Source of the DNA: Candidatus Acidulodesulfobacterium acidiphilum
GTDB taxonomy: Bacteria > SZUA-79 > Acidulodesulfobacterales > Acidulodesulfobacteraceae
Assembly: GCA_008534395.1 (NCBI GenBank)
Contig: SHMQ01000022.1
Span: forward strand, 1 to 32,654
Direction: 5' to 3'
DNA length: 32,654 nt
The notes beneath the pieces are model-generated. The model did not search any database. It was not told the DNA's origin and saw only the letters and a program-made list of their open reading frames with translations. A program made the translations under genes and the position numbers. Positions 22,994 to 32,654 of this stretch are shown in pieces. Numbering within the stretch: position 1 is the first letter of the stretch; each line of letters begins with the position of its first letter.

Positions 22994-24160
22994 TTATTTT
23001 CCGGATTTACCGGCCGTATTTATAGTTACTTCGACCATCATGCCGGGCTTTAAAAGATGATTTTTGTCGTTTAATATCTCAATCCTGACGGGAAGCCTGT
23101 GCGTTACTTTTGTAAATGTTCCCGAAGGGTTATTTGTAGGAATTAATGCAAATTTAGAGGTCGTAACCGAACCTACGAATTTAACCGTACCTCTAAAAAC
23201 TTTTCCTGGAAAAGAGTCTACCGTAATAGTAACAGGGTCTCCTTTTTTAACGTTACCTATGACTGTTTCTTTTACGTTCGCAGTTACCCAGACGCGCTTC
23301 AAATTATTTTCCATAACTATAGGTGTACTCGGCGTAACATATTCGCCTGCGTAAGACATTTTTTCGGTTATGACGCCGTTTATAGGCGAATATATAAAAG
23401 TATTTTTATAGTTGGCGAGAGCAACTTTATAAGCGGCTTGAGCTACCTTAACTGCCTTTTCTATAGGAATAAGCGTCGTCAGTTTGTTTGCGTAAGAAAC
23501 GCTCTTTATATATCTGGATTCCACATAATTTCTTCTTGCGGTTCTAAGTGCCGACTGAGCCGATATAAAAGCCTGTCTTGAAATTAGATACTGGGTATCA
23601 AGGGTATCGAACTGTTCTTTTGTTATAAACTGTTTATTTAAAAGGGCAAGTCCCCTCAAATAATTTTTTTTGGCAAGTATATACGATAATTTTGCTTTAT
23701 GGAGATTTGCCGAAGCAGTCGTATAAGACAGCCTGTTAATGTAGTATGCGTTATAAGAGTTTCCTATGAATTGCGCAACATTACCTCCGGCGCTAAATAG
23801 TTTTGCCTTTGCAAGTTTATAATTTTCTTTAGCCTGAAGCATTTCGGGATAATACGTCGAATCATTAATGCGGGCTATAAGCTCGCCTTTTTTAACTATT
23901 TCGTTTTTATGTACGTAAACTGCTTTTATATTGCCCGGAACCATAGTGCTTATTGAGACTATATGTCCGTCAACCTCGGCATCTTCCGTATATACGTGGG
24001 TAAGCCCGAAAATATACCATCTTAGTACGAATATACCGCCTATAATTGCAATTAAAAGTATAATAGAAGCGGTAATAATATTTTTTTTGGTAAATTTGCT
24101 GTCAGCTTCTTTTAAAGAGTCGTTTTGCGCCGTTTCGGCTTTTTCGTTTTCTCCGTTCAT
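22994..24160 (-). CDS. HlyD/EmrA-family membrane-fusion protein
   Basis: 388 residues. A cytoplasmic charged tail (1-25), one membrane helix (about 29-48), then TEDAEVDGHIVSISTMVPG followed by NIKAVYVHKNEIVKKGELIA (first half of the lipoyl domain), a long coiled hairpin (about 100-250), and SPINGVITEKMSYAGEYV (second lipoyl half). Beta-barrel motifs: VWVTANVKETVIGNVKKGD, ITVDSFPGKVFRG and FTKVTHRLPVRIEI, closest to EmrA. It bridges an inner-membrane MFS exporter of EmrB type to TolC. A TolC gene is directly upstream, but no EmrB-like gene is present in this window. Ribosome site GGGTGG before the ATG. Confidence 0.93.
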   Translation of the reverse strand: MNGENEKAETAQNDSLKEADSKFTKKNIITASIILLIAIIGGIFVLRWYIFGLTHVYTEDAEVDGHIVSISTMVPGNIKAVYVHKNEIVKKGELIARINDSTYYPEMLQAKENYKLAKAKLFSAGGNVAQFIGNSYNAYYINRLSYTTASANLHKAKLSYILAKKNYLRGLALLNKQFITKEQFDTLDTQYLISRQAFISAQSALRTARRNYVESRYIKSVSYANKLTTLIPIEKAVKVAQAAYKVALANYKNTFIYSPINGVITEKMSYAGEYVTPSTPIVMENNLKRVWVTANVKETVIGNVKKGDPVTITVDSFPGKVFRGTVKFVGSVTTSKFALIPTNNPSGTFTKVTHRLPVRIEILNDKNHLLKPGMMVEVTINTAGKSGK

Positions 24161-24268
24161 TCAGAACCACCCGATTAATTATTTATTCGTTATTTATTGA
24201 ATTGGTTAATTGATTATTAAATTACATAAATTACATATTATTTTGAATTTCTATAAAATATCTTAAAT

Positions 24269-25705
24269 TTAGTTAAATTTATCGATTTTCATATCTATAA
24301 GTTTTCTTTTAAAAGAACCGATAAGTCTTTTTAAATCCAAAACGGATTCGTAATAATCGAGCTTTGCCGAAAGCAGATTATGCCTCGCCCTCGTAAGTTC
24401 CGCAAGCGCAGTAACAACGTCGACGCTTGTAGCCACTCCTGCTTTAAATTCTTCTTCTACAAGGGTAAAATTTTTAGAAGCAAATTTTTCTTCGTGCCTA
24501 AGAGTACCGACCTGCGATTTTAAACTTTTTACGTTATAGAACATCGATATTACCTGAGCTTTAAGATTTCTCTTTTCCTGAAGCGTATCATACATAGCTT
24601 CGTTTGCCTCGGAACGCGTCTTTTCTATGGAAATAATCCTATTAGCGCCCTGAAATATAGGCATAGTCAAGGTAGCGCCGGCCGTCCAAAAATTAGTAGA
24701 ACCCGCCGGAATAAAGTGGCTGTTTGACAAAGCGTTGTATGAAGCCGAAAAATTTATTTTCGGAATATACTGGGACTCGTAATACGCCGTCTGGTCGGAT
24801 GCCGATTTTTGGGCAAATTTCAGGGACTTCAAACCGGGGTTGTTATTATATGCAAGAACGATTAATTTGCGAAGTTCGGTTTTTTTAAACAGGGGCTGTT
24901 TAGGCTTAGTCGTTATAAAATGGCGGCTGACGCCCAGCAGGGAAGCAAGCGCCGCCTTATCCGATTTTAACTTATTTTTAGCGCTTATAAGCTCCTGCTT
25001 TGCAGCATAAAACTGAGATTTTGCCTGCAGAAGGTCGGTTATAATAGCAAGTCCCGCGTTAAGCTTTGCGGTAGTAAGCTCAAGATGGGCTTTTGCTTCT
25101 TTAAACGTTTTATGGTCTGCTTTTATTAAGCTTACGTCGTTTAAAACGGTATAATAATCAACCGCTACGCTGTAAAGAGTGCCTGCGGAAACGTTATTAA
25201 GAGACATTTTAGAAGACTTTTCCTTATTTTCCGCCGCCATATAAGCCGGAATAGCGCCGACGTTAAACAGAGGTTCGTTTAACGTAAAACTATACTGGTA
25301 GTTAGGAAAAAAGAATAAAAATATATTACCCATAAGCGGCGCAAACTGCGTCGGAACCGGAGCCGAATTTTTATGCATTCTCTGGTCGGTATATTTAAGC
25401 GAAATATCCGGCAAAACCATACCTATGGCAGACCATTTTAAAAGTGACGACTGATAATAGCTTTCTTTTGCGGCTTTTATGGTGTCGTTGCGGTTAACGG
25501 CAAGCTTATAAGCTTCGTTCAATGTAATCAGCCTGCCCGAATGTCTGACCGGTTTAAGATAGAATGCGTATGCGCCTTTGGCGGCAAAAGGAGATAAAAA
25601 TGAAGCCGTAAAATAGACGGCGGCAAATACGATTATAAGTATCGTTTTAATCGAATATTTATATATATATCTATCTGCATATTTAATGCAACTTTTAATT
25701 TTCAT
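24269..25705 (-). CDS. TolC-family outer-membrane efflux protein 2
   Basis: 478 residues. Long basic N-terminus and hydrophobic segment (TILIIVFAAVYFTASFLSPF) ending at Ala-rich AAKGAYAF, a signal sequence. The TolC helix pattern follows: ITLNEAYKLAVNRNDTIKAA, LNAGLAIITDLLQAKSQFY, NNPGLKSLKFAQKSASDQT, FKAGVATSVDVVTALAELTR and NLLSAKLDYYESVLDLKRLI. It is first of the leftward tolC-hlyD-cytochrome unit, 108 bp before hlyD. No Shine-Dalgarno is visible. About 60 bp upstream is a near-consensus promoter with an operator-like dyad. Only general similarity to the other TolC at 16151. Confidence 0.92.
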   Translation of the reverse strand: MKIKSCIKYADRYIYKYSIKTILIIVFAAVYFTASFLSPFAAKGAYAFYLKPVRHSGRLITLNEAYKLAVNRNDTIKAAKESYYQSSLLKWSAIGMVLPDISLKYTDQRMHKNSAPVPTQFAPLMGNIFLFFFPNYQYSFTLNEPLFNVGAIPAYMAAENKEKSSKMSLNNVSAGTLYSVAVDYYTVLNDVSLIKADHKTFKEAKAHLELTTAKLNAGLAIITDLLQAKSQFYAAKQELISAKNKLKSDKAALASLLGVSRHFITTKPKQPLFKKTELRKLIVLAYNNNPGLKSLKFAQKSASDQTAYYESQYIPKINFSASYNALSNSHFIPAGSTNFWTAGATLTMPIFQGANRIISIEKTRSEANEAMYDTLQEKRNLKAQVISMFYNVKSLKSQVGTLRHEEKFASKNFTLVEEEFKAGVATSVDVVTALAELTRARHNLLSAKLDYYESVLDLKRLIGSFKRKLIDMKIDKFN

Positions 25706-26935: not shown

Positions 26936-29665
26936 TTATGCTTTTAAAAACTCTAAAATTTCATTTTCGGGAACGGGTTTTGAAAATAAATACCCCTGAA
27001 CGATATCGCATCCGAAAGATTTTAATATTTTTAACTGTTCTTCGGTTTCCACACCTTCGCTGATAGTCTTCATGCCCAGATTTGAAGCCAGAACCACGAC
27101 GGTATTCACTATTGCAGAATCTTTGAAATTTTCCATCATTCCTCTTATAAACGAAATATCTATCTTGATAAAATCCGCCGGTATATTCTTTATATAAGAT
27201 AAAGAGGAATAACCCGTGCCGAAATCGTCCAATGAAATCTTAATCCCCTTTTCTTTAAAAATATTTAATATTTTAACGGCGTAATCTAAATTTTTTATAA
27301 ACAGGCCTTCCGTTATTTCAACGGTTAGCAATGACGGCGGGATTCCGTATCTATCCAATGCGGAAACAATCATTTCGACTAACCCTTCTTTTTTAAAACT
27401 GGCAGGCGATATATTCATGGAAACGGGCACGATGTTAAATCCGCTTTCTTTCCACTCTTTTAAGCTCCTGCAGATATTATCTATTAAAAACTCCTCGAAC
27501 TGCCTTATAAACCCCATCTTCTCGATGAGAGGGATAAACTTAACGGGAGATATAATGCCGGTATCTTTATTGTTCCATCTTGCCAGAGCCTCCATGCCTT
27601 TTATTTTGCCTGTTTTTATGTCGAAGTAGGGCTGGTAATAGATTAAAAACTCATTATTTTTAAATGCGTTTATTATGCTATTTTTCATAACTAAAAATTC
27701 CGATGCCTGAACGTTCATAGGCTCTTTAAAAAATTCATATTCTCCTTCCCCCTGCTCTTTTGCGCTCAGAAGCGCAATACTCGCCGTTCTCAATAAATCT
27801 TCAGCATTTTTCCCGTCGTCGGGAAAGATAGATATCCCCATGGTAAAAGAAACGTTGAACGGTTCGGGCTTGACTTTGCGGTTTTCTATTGCAGATTCGG
27901 ACGCTGGTCGTTCTTCGATATGCAGAGGATTTTTAAATTCTTCTTTGAGCCTGTTAATTATCTGTAAAATATCTTCTTTATTTTGTAAATTAACAAATAG
28001 TATTCCAAACTGATCCCCTCCTATCCTTGCAATTATATCTCCGTCTTTCGTGACATTATTTAATCTTTTTGAAAAACTTTGCAAAAGTTTGTCTCCGGTA
28101 TCGTATCCGTAAGTATTGTTAATATAGGATAATTTATATAAATCAATTATTATAAGAGAAATGTTCAGTTCTTTCTCTTTATATCCCCTGGTATTAAGAT
28201 AAGTATCAATGGTAAGGGTAAAGAGATTCTTATTTGGAAGTTTGGTTAAAGGGTCATAAAACGAGATATATTTTACTTCTTCTTCTAATCTCTTTTCTCG
28301 CGTTATATCTTTAGATATTGATACAAAATTTGTAATTTTAGAATCTTCTTTATTTTTGATAGGAACTATTGTTGCATCTAAAGTAAATAATTCGCCGTTT
28401 TTTCTTTTATCTGTCAAAATAACTTTAAAAACTTTTCCTGAATTTATCGTATCCCAGAAAGTTTTATAAACTTCGGCGCTATACAATCCTGATTGAAAAA
28501 TTCTCGGATTTTTCCCTATTAACTCTTCTTTTTTATATCCGCTTATATTTTCTACGCCGCCATTAACATATTCTATATTTCCAAGACTATCGGTTACCAT
28601 CATCCAATCAGGGCTGTTTTCTATTGCTGTATATAGAGTGCGCATCCATTTTTCGTTTGCCGTTTTTTCGGTTATGTCCAAAATTATTACTAATAAACAC
28701 TGTTTGTTATTTAATGTAATTATGGCTATATAAGGTTGGACTATTTTTATTTCACCGTTTTTAAGTTTATGCTGAAAAATAGTAACTCCGCCCCCCTCTG
28801 CCGCCATCGTTTTTCTGAAAATTTTAAGTTCTTGAGGGGTGTTGGAAACATTTATCCTGCTTATATCCATATTTAGCAAATCTTCTCTTGAATAACCGTA
28901 AAATTTTATGGCGGCATCATTGGCATCAATAAAACGACCGGTTTCAATATCAACAATAAAAGAAGGAAGCGGCAGATTATAGAAAAAAGACTCGAATTTT
29001 TGTTCATTTTTTAATAAAATTTTCCGAGATTTATTAAAGTAATAAAAAAATAAAATTAAAAACAATATGATGACAAACGTAACCGCTATAAATGCATAAA
29101 TAGCGATGTTAATATCCCGTTTAAATTCCGATTTCGTATCTTTGATAATATTTGAGGTAGGCAAATGACAGAGATAAAGGGTATGTTTTAAAAAAAGCTT
29201 ATACGATATTCTTGACGATATATATTTAGGGTATTTTATAATTATTTTGAGAATCGGCTTGCCGATATTTTTCCATTGAAAGTATGATTTATTAAAATAT
29301 AATATAATTTGACGGTTATTCTTTAAAAGGTCGCTGTTTTTTTTGATAAATACGTCAAGTTCTTTGTACTGTTTATCCGTCTTTTTTAAATTAAGGCCTA
29401 AGTTATTTAGAACTTTTTTAAGATGTGTTTTTTGGAGCGGCGAATCCTTTAAACTCCCGTAATATATGGACTTGACTACCCCGCTTTTAACAAGGTCTAT
29501 ATCTTTATTTAATTTCGTTATTTTTAGTAAAAGTTCTGAATGGAAAGCGGAAGTTTTTTTAACGGAAACAGGGCCGAAATATAATAAAATGCCGGCGAAC
29601 AGCAAAACAGCGGTTAAAAATAAGCCCTCTATAATATATATCGTTCTATTGTTTTTCAATATCAT
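26936..29665 (-). CDS. membrane sensor with PAS-PAS, degenerate GGDEF and EAL domain: c-di-GMP phosphodiesterase
   Basis: 909 residues. Membrane helix 1 (about 8-31), a periplasmic region of about 155 residues, helix 2 (186-210), two PAS domains (about 222-335 and 340-460), GGDEF (462-650), EAL (655-909). The GGDEF part is degenerate: GGDQF (549-553) for GGDEF, YINNTYGYDTGD for the FKxINDxxGHxxGD motif, and no RxxD inhibition site. The EAL part keeps MEALARW (691-697), the DDFGTGYSSLSYIKNIPADF loop followed by IKID, and ISEGVETEEQ. So it should hydrolyse c-di-GMP, with the GGDEF perhaps binding GTP as an activator. AAAGGAGG precedes the ATG. It lies 57 bp after the cyclase gene, in one operon, and shares the periplasmic region with it. 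Confidence 0.93.
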   Translation of the reverse strand: MILKNNRTIYIIEGLFLTAVLLFAGILLYFGPVSVKKTSAFHSELLLKITKLNKDIDLVKSGVVKSIYYGSLKDSPLQKTHLKKVLNNLGLNLKKTDKQYKELDVFIKKNSDLLKNNRQIILYFNKSYFQWKNIGKPILKIIIKYPKYISSRISYKLFLKHTLYLCHLPTSNIIKDTKSEFKRDINIAIYAFIAVTFVIILFLILFFYYFNKSRKILLKNEQKFESFFYNLPLPSFIVDIETGRFIDANDAAIKFYGYSREDLLNMDISRINVSNTPQELKIFRKTMAAEGGGVTIFQHKLKNGEIKIVQPYIAIITLNNKQCLLVIILDITEKTANEKWMRTLYTAIENSPDWMMVTDSLGNIEYVNGGVENISGYKKEELIGKNPRIFQSGLYSAEVYKTFWDTINSGKVFKVILTDKRKNGELFTLDATIVPIKNKEDSKITNFVSISKDITREKRLEEEVKYISFYDPLTKLPNKNLFTLTIDTYLNTRGYKEKELNISLIIIDLYKLSYINNTYGYDTGDKLLQSFSKRLNNVTKDGDIIARIGGDQFGILFVNLQNKEDILQIINRLKEEFKNPLHIEERPASESAIENRKVKPEPFNVSFTMGISIFPDDGKNAEDLLRTASIALLSAKEQGEGEYEFFKEPMNVQASEFLVMKNSIINAFKNNEFLIYYQPYFDIKTGKIKGMEALARWNNKDTGIISPVKFIPLIEKMGFIRQFEEFLIDNICRSLKEWKESGFNIVPVSMNISPASFKKEGLVEMIVSALDRYGIPPSLLTVEITEGLFIKNLDYAVKILNIFKEKGIKISLDDFGTGYSSLSYIKNIPADFIKIDISFIRGMMENFKDSAIVNTVVVLASNLGMKTISEGVETEEQLKILKSFGCDIVQGYLFSKPVPENEILEFLKA

Positions 29666-29722
29666 AAAGCCTCCTTTTATTGCTTTATTATTTCTTACCA
29701 GAACTTTATACTGCTTATATAC

Positions 29723-32524
29723 TTATACTATACATACCCTGTTCCTTCCGCCCTGTTTGGCCTTATACAGTGCGCCGTCAACCCTTTTTATAAACCCGTC
29801 CGCATCTTCGCCGTCCGCATACCGGCCGACCCCGAGACTTATCGTTACCGAAGTTGCATATTTAAATATACGGTTTTCGACCGTCTTTCTTATTCTTTCG
29901 GCAATATTTTCCGCATCATTAATATCCGTTTCCGGCATTATGACCATAAACTCCTCCCCGCCGTATCGTGCAAGGATATCGGTATCCCTCAGGGCTGTTC
30001 CGACGAGCGCGGTTAATTCGCTGAGAACGGAATCGCCTGCCTGATGGCCGAAGTTATCGTTTATCTCTTTAAACCTGTCTATGTCGAACATTACTAAAGA
30101 CAGCGGTCTTTTATATCTGGCAGCTATTTTGATCAGTCTTTCCAAAGAGCTTTTAAACTTCCTTCTGTTAAAGATGCCGGTAAGGTCGTCTTTCTCGGAA
30201 ATATTTTTATAAGATTCTTTTTCTTTTTCGAGCTGTTTTCTTAATTGGACTAATTCGGTAATGTCGGTAAAAGTTGCAATTCTTACTCTTTTCCCTTTAT
30301 ATAATGCCGAACCTGCATAAATATACATCCATAATTCTTCGCCGGTTTTTTTAAATACTTTAAACGTGACGTAATGCTTATAATCTATATCGACAAGACC
30401 TTTTTTAATCGCGTCTTTTGCGGTTTTTTTATGTTCTTCGGCTAATATATCCCAGAAAAACATATTTTTTAATTCTTCTTCGGAGTAGCCTAATTTTGCC
30501 TGCAATGCCGGATTTGCGTATATAAATTTTTCCGTATGCATATCAAGCCCCTCCGGCATATTATCCGCTAAAGTCCTGAACAATTCTTCGGAGTCTTTAA
30601 GTTTGTCTTCTAAAAGCTTTTTCTCCGTGATATCGTATAAAGTCCAAATCGCTGCGTCCTGACCGTTTATGCTGACCGGCGAACCTGACATCTCGCACCA
30701 TATAGCCGTTCCGTCTTTGCGTTTAAAATAAATAGGCGAAATAGTAGCGGTTTTTTTCTCTAAGAAAATATTTTTATAAAATTCTCCTACTCGGTTATAT
30801 TCTTCGTCGTCAAAATAAAGGAGCCTGGCCGACTGCCCAAGCAGTTCGTCTTTGCTTCCGTAACCGAATATCTCCGCAAACCTGTTATTTAGGTTTATGT
30901 AAAGCCTGTTCTGGTCGGTAATCGATATTCCTGCTATCGTGTTGTTTAGAATGGCTTCCTGCGCCGCCATAAGTTCATGTTCGCGGATTAAAACGTCTAT
31001 TCTGTCTAGCCCCCTGGATATGTTTTTGGCTATTTCTTCGAGCAGGGTTTTCAGGTCTTCGTCGAATATGTTTTCCTCATAATGATATACTCCGAACAAT
31101 CCCCAAATTTTACCGTTTCGGTAAACCGGCAAATTAGCGGCTGATTCTATGCCGAAGCGTTCGGCGCGTTCTTTCCAAGGCGATAAAAAAGGCGAACCCA
31201 TAAAAGACTGTGCATAATGCATTTTACCTTCCCGCCATGTTCTGCCTGATATAGCTTGACCCTCGGGAATGTCTGGATTTACGGAAATAAAAATTCCGTC
31301 AAGATAACCTGTTTCGCCGGCCGATGCAAGAAACCGGAGTTTTTCATCCTCATCAGGCGTTCCAATATATGTAAGTTTAAGACGGGCATATTTAACGGCA
31401 AGTTCGCAAACGGATTTAAGCATCTCTTTTTCGTCAGCGCTTTCCGCGATTGTTTGATTTATCATGGCCAGAGCCGCATTAAAATTAAATAATCGTTCTA
31501 CTCGTTTTTGCGCTTTTATTTTTTCGGTAATATCCGTTATAATAGCCTGAACGTAAGGTTTATTGTCGTATATAATACCGGAGATATGCGCTTCAACATC
31601 CCTTATCTCTCCGTTTTTGAGTTTATGTTTAAAAATAGCAAAATTATAGCCCTCGTTTAAGGATTTTGCCATGAAATCTATCTTCTCTTCAATCGATATA
31701 AACGGATTTATAACGGCAATAGTCATATGCGTAAATTCTTCTTTAGAATAGCCGTAAAACTCTACTGCTTTTTTATTTGCGTCTATAATAAGACCGGATT
31801 CGACGTTAACGATTAACGACGGAACGGGGAGTTTACTAAAAAATGTTTTCAATCTTTGTTCGCTTTTTCTGACGATGAATAATTTACTAAAATAATATGC
31901 GAGTAAAATTCCAACCATTATTATGATAATGGTTCCGAGGATAAATACGAAAAAGTACATATTAATAATATATTTGAAATATGATAACGCTTCCAAAGCT
32001 GGCGCCATTGACGGCATAATCGAGGAAGATACCGGCATAAGAATATATTTTGAAAAAAGTCTGTATGACGTTATCGGGGCAATATATACTGGATACTTTA
32101 TAAAGTTTTTAATGTCGGGCTTACCGAAGGTTTCCCATTGAAAATAAGATTTTTCAAATATTTTTACGATTTTGGGGTCGTAATTAGCATACGGCGCTGT
32201 TTTTTTAATAAATGCTGCGGTATTTTTATATCCTGAATCTATTTTTCCTACAAGTATTTCTGTTTTATTTAAAGTCTGTTTTAATTTATAGCGGTAATTT
32301 AAAGGCTTAACTTTTTCGTAATATATAATCAGTCGCGTCTTTGTTTTAAGGCGTTCTATATTTTTGTTTATCTTCATAAATTTTAAATGGAGTTTTGTAT
32401 TGCAGACGATAGAATGCCTTAAGGGAACAAGCCCGAACCGCCATATTGAAACGGCTGAGGTTAAAACCATTATAAAAAACAAAGCTCCCAGAACGTAAGT
32501 GATTTTATTTTTTATAAAGCACAT
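29723..32524 (-). CDS. membrane sensor with PAS-GAF-PAS-PAS-GGDEF: diguanylate cyclase
   Basis: 933 residues. Membrane helix 1 (about 8-29), a periplasmic region of about 155 residues, helix 2 (188-211), PAS (222-335), GAF (345-505, AALAMINQTIAESADEKEML to EIAKNISRGLDR), PAS (515-635), PAS (640-755), a coiled linker and GGDEF (770-933). The active site is intact: FDIDRFKEINDNFGHQAGD and YGGEEF (854-859). RDTD (846-849), five residues before the motif, is the product-inhibition I-site. It should make c-di-GMP from two GTP under feedback control. The ATG (32524) is the first in frame, but it is preceded by the suspect G run, so the true start and promoter are uncertain. First gene of an operon with the EAL protein. 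Confidence 0.92.
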   Translation of the reverse strand: MCFIKNKITYVLGALFFIMVLTSAVSIWRFGLVPLRHSIVCNTKLHLKFMKINKNIERLKTKTRLIIYYEKVKPLNYRYKLKQTLNKTEILVGKIDSGYKNTAAFIKKTAPYANYDPKIVKIFEKSYFQWETFGKPDIKNFIKYPVYIAPITSYRLFSKYILMPVSSSIMPSMAPALEALSYFKYIINMYFFVFILGTIIIIMVGILLAYYFSKLFIVRKSEQRLKTFFSKLPVPSLIVNVESGLIIDANKKAVEFYGYSKEEFTHMTIAVINPFISIEEKIDFMAKSLNEGYNFAIFKHKLKNGEIRDVEAHISGIIYDNKPYVQAIITDITEKIKAQKRVERLFNFNAALAMINQTIAESADEKEMLKSVCELAVKYARLKLTYIGTPDEDEKLRFLASAGETGYLDGIFISVNPDIPEGQAISGRTWREGKMHYAQSFMGSPFLSPWKERAERFGIESAANLPVYRNGKIWGLFGVYHYEENIFDEDLKTLLEEIAKNISRGLDRIDVLIREHELMAAQEAILNNTIAGISITDQNRLYINLNNRFAEIFGYGSKDELLGQSARLLYFDDEEYNRVGEFYKNIFLEKKTATISPIYFKRKDGTAIWCEMSGSPVSINGQDAAIWTLYDITEKKLLEDKLKDSEELFRTLADNMPEGLDMHTEKFIYANPALQAKLGYSEEELKNMFFWDILAEEHKKTAKDAIKKGLVDIDYKHYVTFKVFKKTGEELWMYIYAGSALYKGKRVRIATFTDITELVQLRKQLEKEKESYKNISEKDDLTGIFNRRKFKSSLERLIKIAARYKRPLSLVMFDIDRFKEINDNFGHQAGDSVLSELTALVGTALRDTDILARYGGEEFMVIMPETDINDAENIAERIRKTVENRIFKYATSVTISLGVGRYADGEDADGFIKRVDGALYKAKQGGRNRVCIV

Positions 32525-32654
32525 AAGTCGGGGGGGGGGGGGGGGGGGGGAGAAAAATCTCCCGAGCAGGATTTGTATATGTTTTTTTGTTTCTATTTTT
32601 TCTCTCTTCTCTCTCTCCTTTTCTCATAATTATATTTAACTCCCCCCTCCCTCC
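32525..32654. other. poly-G run and low-complexity end, probable artefact
   Basis: 21 consecutive G (32530-32550) start six bases from the ATG of the cyclase gene. They are followed by a C/T-rich, ORF-free stretch (runs of TCTC, TTTT, CCCCCC) unlike any other part of the window. This is typical of dark-cycle G calls and a broken contig end. The promoter of the c-di-GMP operon cannot be read here. Confidence 0.6.

Follow-up and report, generated by a model that had tools for sequence, protein, structure and literature searches.

Here, we describe a family of all-helical periplasmic sensors on c-di-GMP enzymes, specific to one bacterial lineage, many of whose members are probably expressed under the control of slipping G/C tracts. 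We put the probability of this sequence-based reading at about two in three. What the sequences themselves show is the homology of the sensors, the limits of the family, its domains, the enrichment and placement of the tracts, and the differences in their length; phase-variable (slipped-strand) expression of the c-di-GMP sensors appears to be the best interpretation of these data. With somewhat less assurance, we favor the broader idea that the c-di-GMP network of this uncultured, acidophilic lineage is governed by numerous switches of the slipped-strand kind, each independent of the others and placed on cyclases and phosphodiesterases as well as on chemoreceptors, TonB receptors and possibly a sigma-70 factor, that each clone thereby explores signal set points, and that the sensor domain is new.

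Two members of the family, A and B, are encoded next to each other in the window, the whole 32,654-nucleotide stretch of DNA that was analysed. Their features are as follows.

26936–29665, minus strand: protein A, 909 aa, TM-sensor-TM-PAS-PAS-GGDEF(degenerate GGDQF)-EAL, with EAL at E 8.7e-74 (Pfam)
29105–29572, minus strand: periplasmic sensor region of A, about residues 32–187, from the alignment; all-helical AlphaFold model, pLDDT 85.7
27746–28261, minus strand: GGDEF domain of A, residues 469–640 (Pfam), degenerate (GGDQF) and without an RxxD I-site
26975–27676, minus strand: EAL domain of A, residues 664–897 (Pfam), catalytic motifs canonical as read from the translation
29666–29722, minus strand: B–A gap of 57 nt, which contains the ribosome-binding site of A (AAAAGGAGGCTTTATG) but nothing resembling a terminator
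29723–32524, minus strand: protein B, 933 aa, TM-sensor-TM-PAS-GAF-PAS-PAS-GGDEF (Pfam)
31964–32431, minus strand: periplasmic sensor region of B, about residues 32–187, from the alignment; all-helical AlphaFold model, pLDDT 82.8
29738–30193, minus strand: GGDEF domain of B, residues 778–929 (Pfam), GGEEF plus RxxD

Proteins A and B

A preliminary description of this DNA gave coordinates and motifs for A and B that are correct and were found in the sequence. It assigned an intact GGEEF and I-site to one protein, and B indeed has RDTDILARYGGEEF, with I-site and A-site intact. At the sequence level, B thus carries the GG[DE]EF motif of a diguanylate cyclase along with RxxD, and it is likely a diguanylate cyclase with an I-site. 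The other protein was said to combine GGDQF with an intact EAL. This agrees with what we find in A, which has a degenerate KDGDIIARIGGDQF and a full EAL domain with canonical catalytic residues. Orthologues of A that bear EAL are also degenerate in GGDEF (GEDEF in G014, GDDKF in G019). Because its own GGDEF is degenerate, its EAL canonical, and the EAL-bearing orthologues degenerate too, A is most likely a c-di-GMP phosphodiesterase. The proposal that B and A form one operon is plausible, given their common strand and the short gap between them, in which a terminator-like site was sought and none was found. In total, the source genome contains 19 GGDEF matches. Neighbouring genes at 22994–25705 of the window, read by eye, encode membrane-fusion-like and outer-membrane-efflux-like proteins, and this pair is probably part of an export system.

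We envision A and B as two-pass membrane receptors, in which the periplasmic sensor would perceive a signal, presumably a ligand, and pass it through the second membrane helix and a PAS/GAF relay to the output. The predicted outputs are the GGEEF cyclase in B and the EAL phosphodiesterase in A.

A sensor family found in one lineage

The N-terminal 231/232 residues of A and B align end to end (116 bits, E 1e-36), in line with the earlier proposal of a common sensor. The homologous stretch takes in both membrane helices and reaches the first PAS domain, with 36% identity; the A and B sensor regions share 35%. An E value of this size over such a length means that the likeness reflects homology rather than chance. 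Four copies of the sensor are present in the source genome (A, B, and copies on contigs C4 and C49, the last two absent from the preliminary description), and a profile built from these four was used to search for further members. The family was found in 29 of the 30 genomes of the family-level lineage around MAG SZUA-79, which we take to be Candidatus Acidulodesulfobacteriota, and about 60 distinct members were gathered. All intact members have c-di-GMP domains as output, mostly a GGEEF cyclase and in a few cases GGDEF-EAL. The search of 356 genomes outside the lineage yielded no convincing member; the only matches there, at E 1e-4 or weaker, were short and partial and were rejected. A match on contig C10 of G000 (E 0.01) was also rejected, as the protein is HD-GYP-like.

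The region had been said to correspond to no named sensor domain, and profile checks bear this out. An hmmscan of 55 aligned sensor regions against Pfam gave no credible family for any of them (0/55), and a PDB sequence search with the sensor returned chance-level matches only. Membership in 4HB_MCP_1 or TarH by sequence was rejected, since neither hmmscan of the 55 members nor, for 4HB_MCP_1, comparison of profiles produced a match. DAHL (PF19443) came into consideration through a likeness of the segment LNKDIDLVKSG and is, like the present sensor, a helical periplasmic sensor in two-pass receptors. However, no genome of the lineage contains a protein above the DAHL cut-off, and comparison of the two profiles gave E 0.71 (a weak test, the DAHL profile consisting of three sequences only), so this candidate was rejected as well. 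The data support a sensor domain that is previously undescribed at the sequence level and, in the genomes searched, specific to the lineage.

The separate AlphaFold models of the A and B sensors have similar helix layouts, the likeness here being one of layout. Among solved structures, the best Foldseek match of the A model is the ligand domain of E. coli Tar (probability 1.00, TM 0.68–0.72 on the target, E 0.02). Tar is again the first match of the B model, but weakly, with a TM of 0.24 on the query. Simple helical bundles easily resemble one another. On the basis of these models, the sensor is likely a divergent four-helix-bundle type, the fold class of the B sensor being a putative assignment. 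Tar-type four-helix bundles (Pfam clan 4HB_MCP, comprising 4HB_MCP_1, TarH and CHASE3) share with the present family, as modelled, an all-helical segment of about 155 residues between two membrane helices, and provide the best fold match of the A model; they differ in that the family described here has no sequence match to them and, across the genomes searched, occurs in a single lineage. Sensors of the four-helix-bundle type are known to occur on c-di-GMP pathways (PMC8846402).

It may also be that the periplasmic region is a dimerisation and anchoring module without a ligand of its own, and that the PAS and GAF domains do the sensing. Such a role would be compatible with the low conservation of the region (a single invariant column family-wide in the sensor alignment), with the all-helical model, and with the presence of PAS domains in both A and B. 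Yet a core of K-S-Y-F-x-W...P-I-L-x-R-x-I-K-Y has been retained while the cytoplasmic modules were reshuffled, and we regard a purely structural role as unlikely, though not implausible.

History of the A/B pair

In the preliminary description, A and B were suggested to respond to the same periplasmic signal, which would jointly drive breakdown and synthesis of c-di-GMP in a balanced switch. The homologous sensor common to A and B and their adjacency on one strand are in keeping with this idea, as is the age of the B-then-A order. In G002, the 3′ end of B survives directly upstream of A as a stretch of about 170 nt that nearly matches the window, and a shorter B 3′ remnant lies upstream of A in G014. 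These remnants indicate that B-then-A is the older arrangement in the genus and that B has since been deleted there. Several observations argue against the balanced switch, however. In the tree, the A and B sensors fall into separate, well-supported old clades with long branches, and the A–B identity of 35% is little above the 31–32% seen with the unlinked C4 copy. B has been lost at the locus in two sister genomes, G019 has A alone, without B, and the source genome holds four sensor copies. Moreover, GGDEF-EAL proteins share the A clade with plain GGEEF cyclases of other genera, which implies an exchange of outputs behind A-type sensors. We therefore consider a single shared signal improbable.

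A B-like cyclase is found downstream of A in G014, and on another contig, apart from A, in G002. Conservation of the A/B operon across the lineage was considered and rejected, given the B remnants in G002 and G014 and the solitary A of G019. As judged from these comparisons, the A/B pair is real but is not a conserved balanced unit.

G/C tracts at the starts of sensor genes

A G/C homopolymer of 9–21 bp lies near the start of 14 of the 56 sensor-family genes, whereas none of the 340 other genes at these loci has one (Fisher p 2.7e-13). With the threshold set at runs of at least 9 bp, the genome-wide expectation is 0.065, as compared to the 14 observed; about 216 such runs are present in the about 54.5 Mb of the 30 genomes (summed by hand). 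The other 42 family genes lack a tract that reaches 9 bp, and the unlinked C4 and C49 copies of the source genome likewise have none.

In eight of the 14 cases, the tract is a G run between a TTG-type −35 and a TAT-type −10 box, for example TTGAATTCGGC[13G]TATAAT. Placement of the tract between −35 and −10, as in porA of Neisseria, is seen at many loci of the lineage: the pattern of −35, G tract and −10 gave 47 matches in the 30 genomes (overlapping, corresponding to about 36 sites), versus 3 in the reversed control. Promoter tracts are found, among other places, at G014 C20:66955 and 69691, G016 C4:209456, G019 C2:207990 and G024 C20:20060. Promoter spacers that contain a G tract range from 12 to 27 bp, most of them 13–18 bp, unlike those of fixed promoters. 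In the G002 promoter upstream of A, the tract is interrupted and the spacer is exactly 17 bp. Between genomes, tract lengths differ among sites with near-identical flanks (10/11/13, 13/12, 13/13/16/10 and 13/9). Some tracts lie instead in the 5′ leader or the 5′ coding sequence. One site is represented by two lengths, 13G in frame (L201) and 9G out of frame (L065) with the likely ATG, as read by eye, and at L081 an 11C tract in the 5′ coding sequence is in frame.

Promoter tracts are also found at lineage genes for PAS-GGDEF proteins, a chemoreceptor, TonB receptors, a FliK-like protein, a nickel transporter and small lipoproteins. The set of genes behind tracts is the usual mixture of a phase-variable repertoire, unusually weighted to c-di-GMP enzymes. 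We propose that a G tract usually serves as the spacer between −35 and −10, and that in some cases a tract acts from the 5′ leader or the beginning of the coding sequence. By slipping, a tract would then turn individual c-di-GMP enzymes on and off at random, and a clonal population would come to contain cells with different c-di-GMP set points.

Could the tracts be artefacts of assembly or sequencing, or neutral mutational debris of AT-rich intergenic DNA, with no regulatory meaning? All of the genomes are drafts, some of the tracts are at contig ends, and poly-G is a known artefact of two-colour sequencing. But the tracts turn up at corresponding positions, between conserved flanks, in assemblies that are independent of one another; they are placed exactly between promoter boxes, with a reversed control near zero; and they are found upstream of one gene family while absent from its neighbours. 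We give this explanation little credence. Equally doubtful is the idea that a regulator binds the tracts, or that they fold into G-quadruplexes or i-motifs, and that expression is tuned in this way without slippage switching. G runs of 9–21 bases, many of them beside −10 boxes, would lend themselves to such binding or folding, but slippage better accounts for the variable spacers, for the in-coding tracts and for the differing lengths at near-identical sites.

The tract beside B

The window contains one such tract, which the preliminary description did not notice, and possible upstream elements beyond it.

32530–32550, no strand assigned: 21-bp homopolymer, G on the plus strand and C on the coding strand, 5 nt upstream of the listed B ATG; candidate slipped-strand switch
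32625–32654, minus strand: possible upstream elements at the contig end, comprising a G-rich run, TATAAT at 32634–32629 and ATG at 32627, read by eye

This tract is the longest of the few of its kind in the 2.09-Mb source genome. It has the C orientation and no clear flanking promoter boxes, and the porA-type placement between −35 and −10 was not found for it. Since the tract lies about 100 bp from the contig end and assembled run lengths are unreliable, its length and setting are uncertain, and the elements at 32625–32654 are uncertain because the contig ends there. The ATG at 32627, upstream of the tract, is one base out of frame with B at the 21 C of this assembly. The C21 may lie in the 5′ leader of B, and its putative role is possibly that of a translational switch; it is also possible that a second (promoter) tract lies beyond the contig end. 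As the tract sits at the start of B, slippage in the window would alter the cyclase. It might also change the ratio of cyclase to phosphodiesterase, by way of a shared transcript.

Relation to known systems

In Neisseria, a poly-G tract separates the −35 and −10 boxes of porA, 17 bp being the optimal spacing, and in Treponema, the length of a poly-G affects the activity of the tprL promoter (PMC7864442). The lineage shares with these systems the poly-G in the promoter and, with porA in particular, its position as the spacer. The genes concerned are different, being c-di-GMP enzymes, chemoreceptors and TonB receptors of free-living acidophiles rather than host-exposed antigens. Phase variation acting directly on c-di-GMP enzymes has a parallel in Clostridioides difficile, where the phosphodiesterases pdcB and pdcC are phase-variable (PMC9286219, PMC11868660). 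There, however, the mechanism is site-specific DNA inversion, whereas in the lineage it would be simple-sequence slippage, on many cyclases and at least one phosphodiesterase. A 2025 review describes the connection of phase variation with c-di-GMP as new and gives two cases, inversion of DNA in C. difficile and an epigenetic switch in E. coli (PMC11868660). In the open-licence literature, we found no paper on slippage-based switching of a c-di-GMP gene family and none on phase variation in this lineage.

If our interpretation is correct, phase variation and c-di-GMP would be linked in a third mode, by simple-sequence slippage across an entire family of c-di-GMP sensors, and this in a free-living acid mine drainage lineage rather than a host-associated one. 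Research on c-di-GMP would also gain a sensor family without a known ligand. A direct test is within reach, since metagenome reads that already exist would give the tract lengths.

Other tract-bearing loci

Several further loci with tracts were noted. At the extreme 3′ end of a GAF/HD-GYP gene, before a CobB/CobQ-like gene, the G tract measures 13 (L166, G000 C30:25097), 13 (L176, G014), 10 (L154, G002) and 16 (L151, G011), the domain assignment by Pfam applying to the G000 copy only. Three TonB-dependent receptor genes of G023 (L286, L287 and L288; two Pfam-confirmed) have near-identical upstream regions with 10–11 bp of G between TTGGCA and TATTAT. The sequence TTGACATTTCT[10G] occurs at L171 (G016), L200 (G006) and L214 (G003), with a tract of 10 in all three genomes, and a conserved 175-aa secreted protein is encoded downstream of it at L171 and L214. 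A GH57 branching-enzyme-like gene (L180 and L302, in G021 and G023) has 13 and 12 G in almost identical flanks. In G015 (L098/L041), a member of the sensor family with several stop codons still stands behind TTGACGGT[11G].

Finally, a gene for a sigma-70 protein (regions 1.2 and 2) at L163:2453-3187 (G000 C1:103409) has a G10 run close to where its reading frame ends. Sequence resembling region 4 follows in another frame, and a PAS-GGDEF gene adjoins. We regard this gene as a candidate phase-variable sigma factor.
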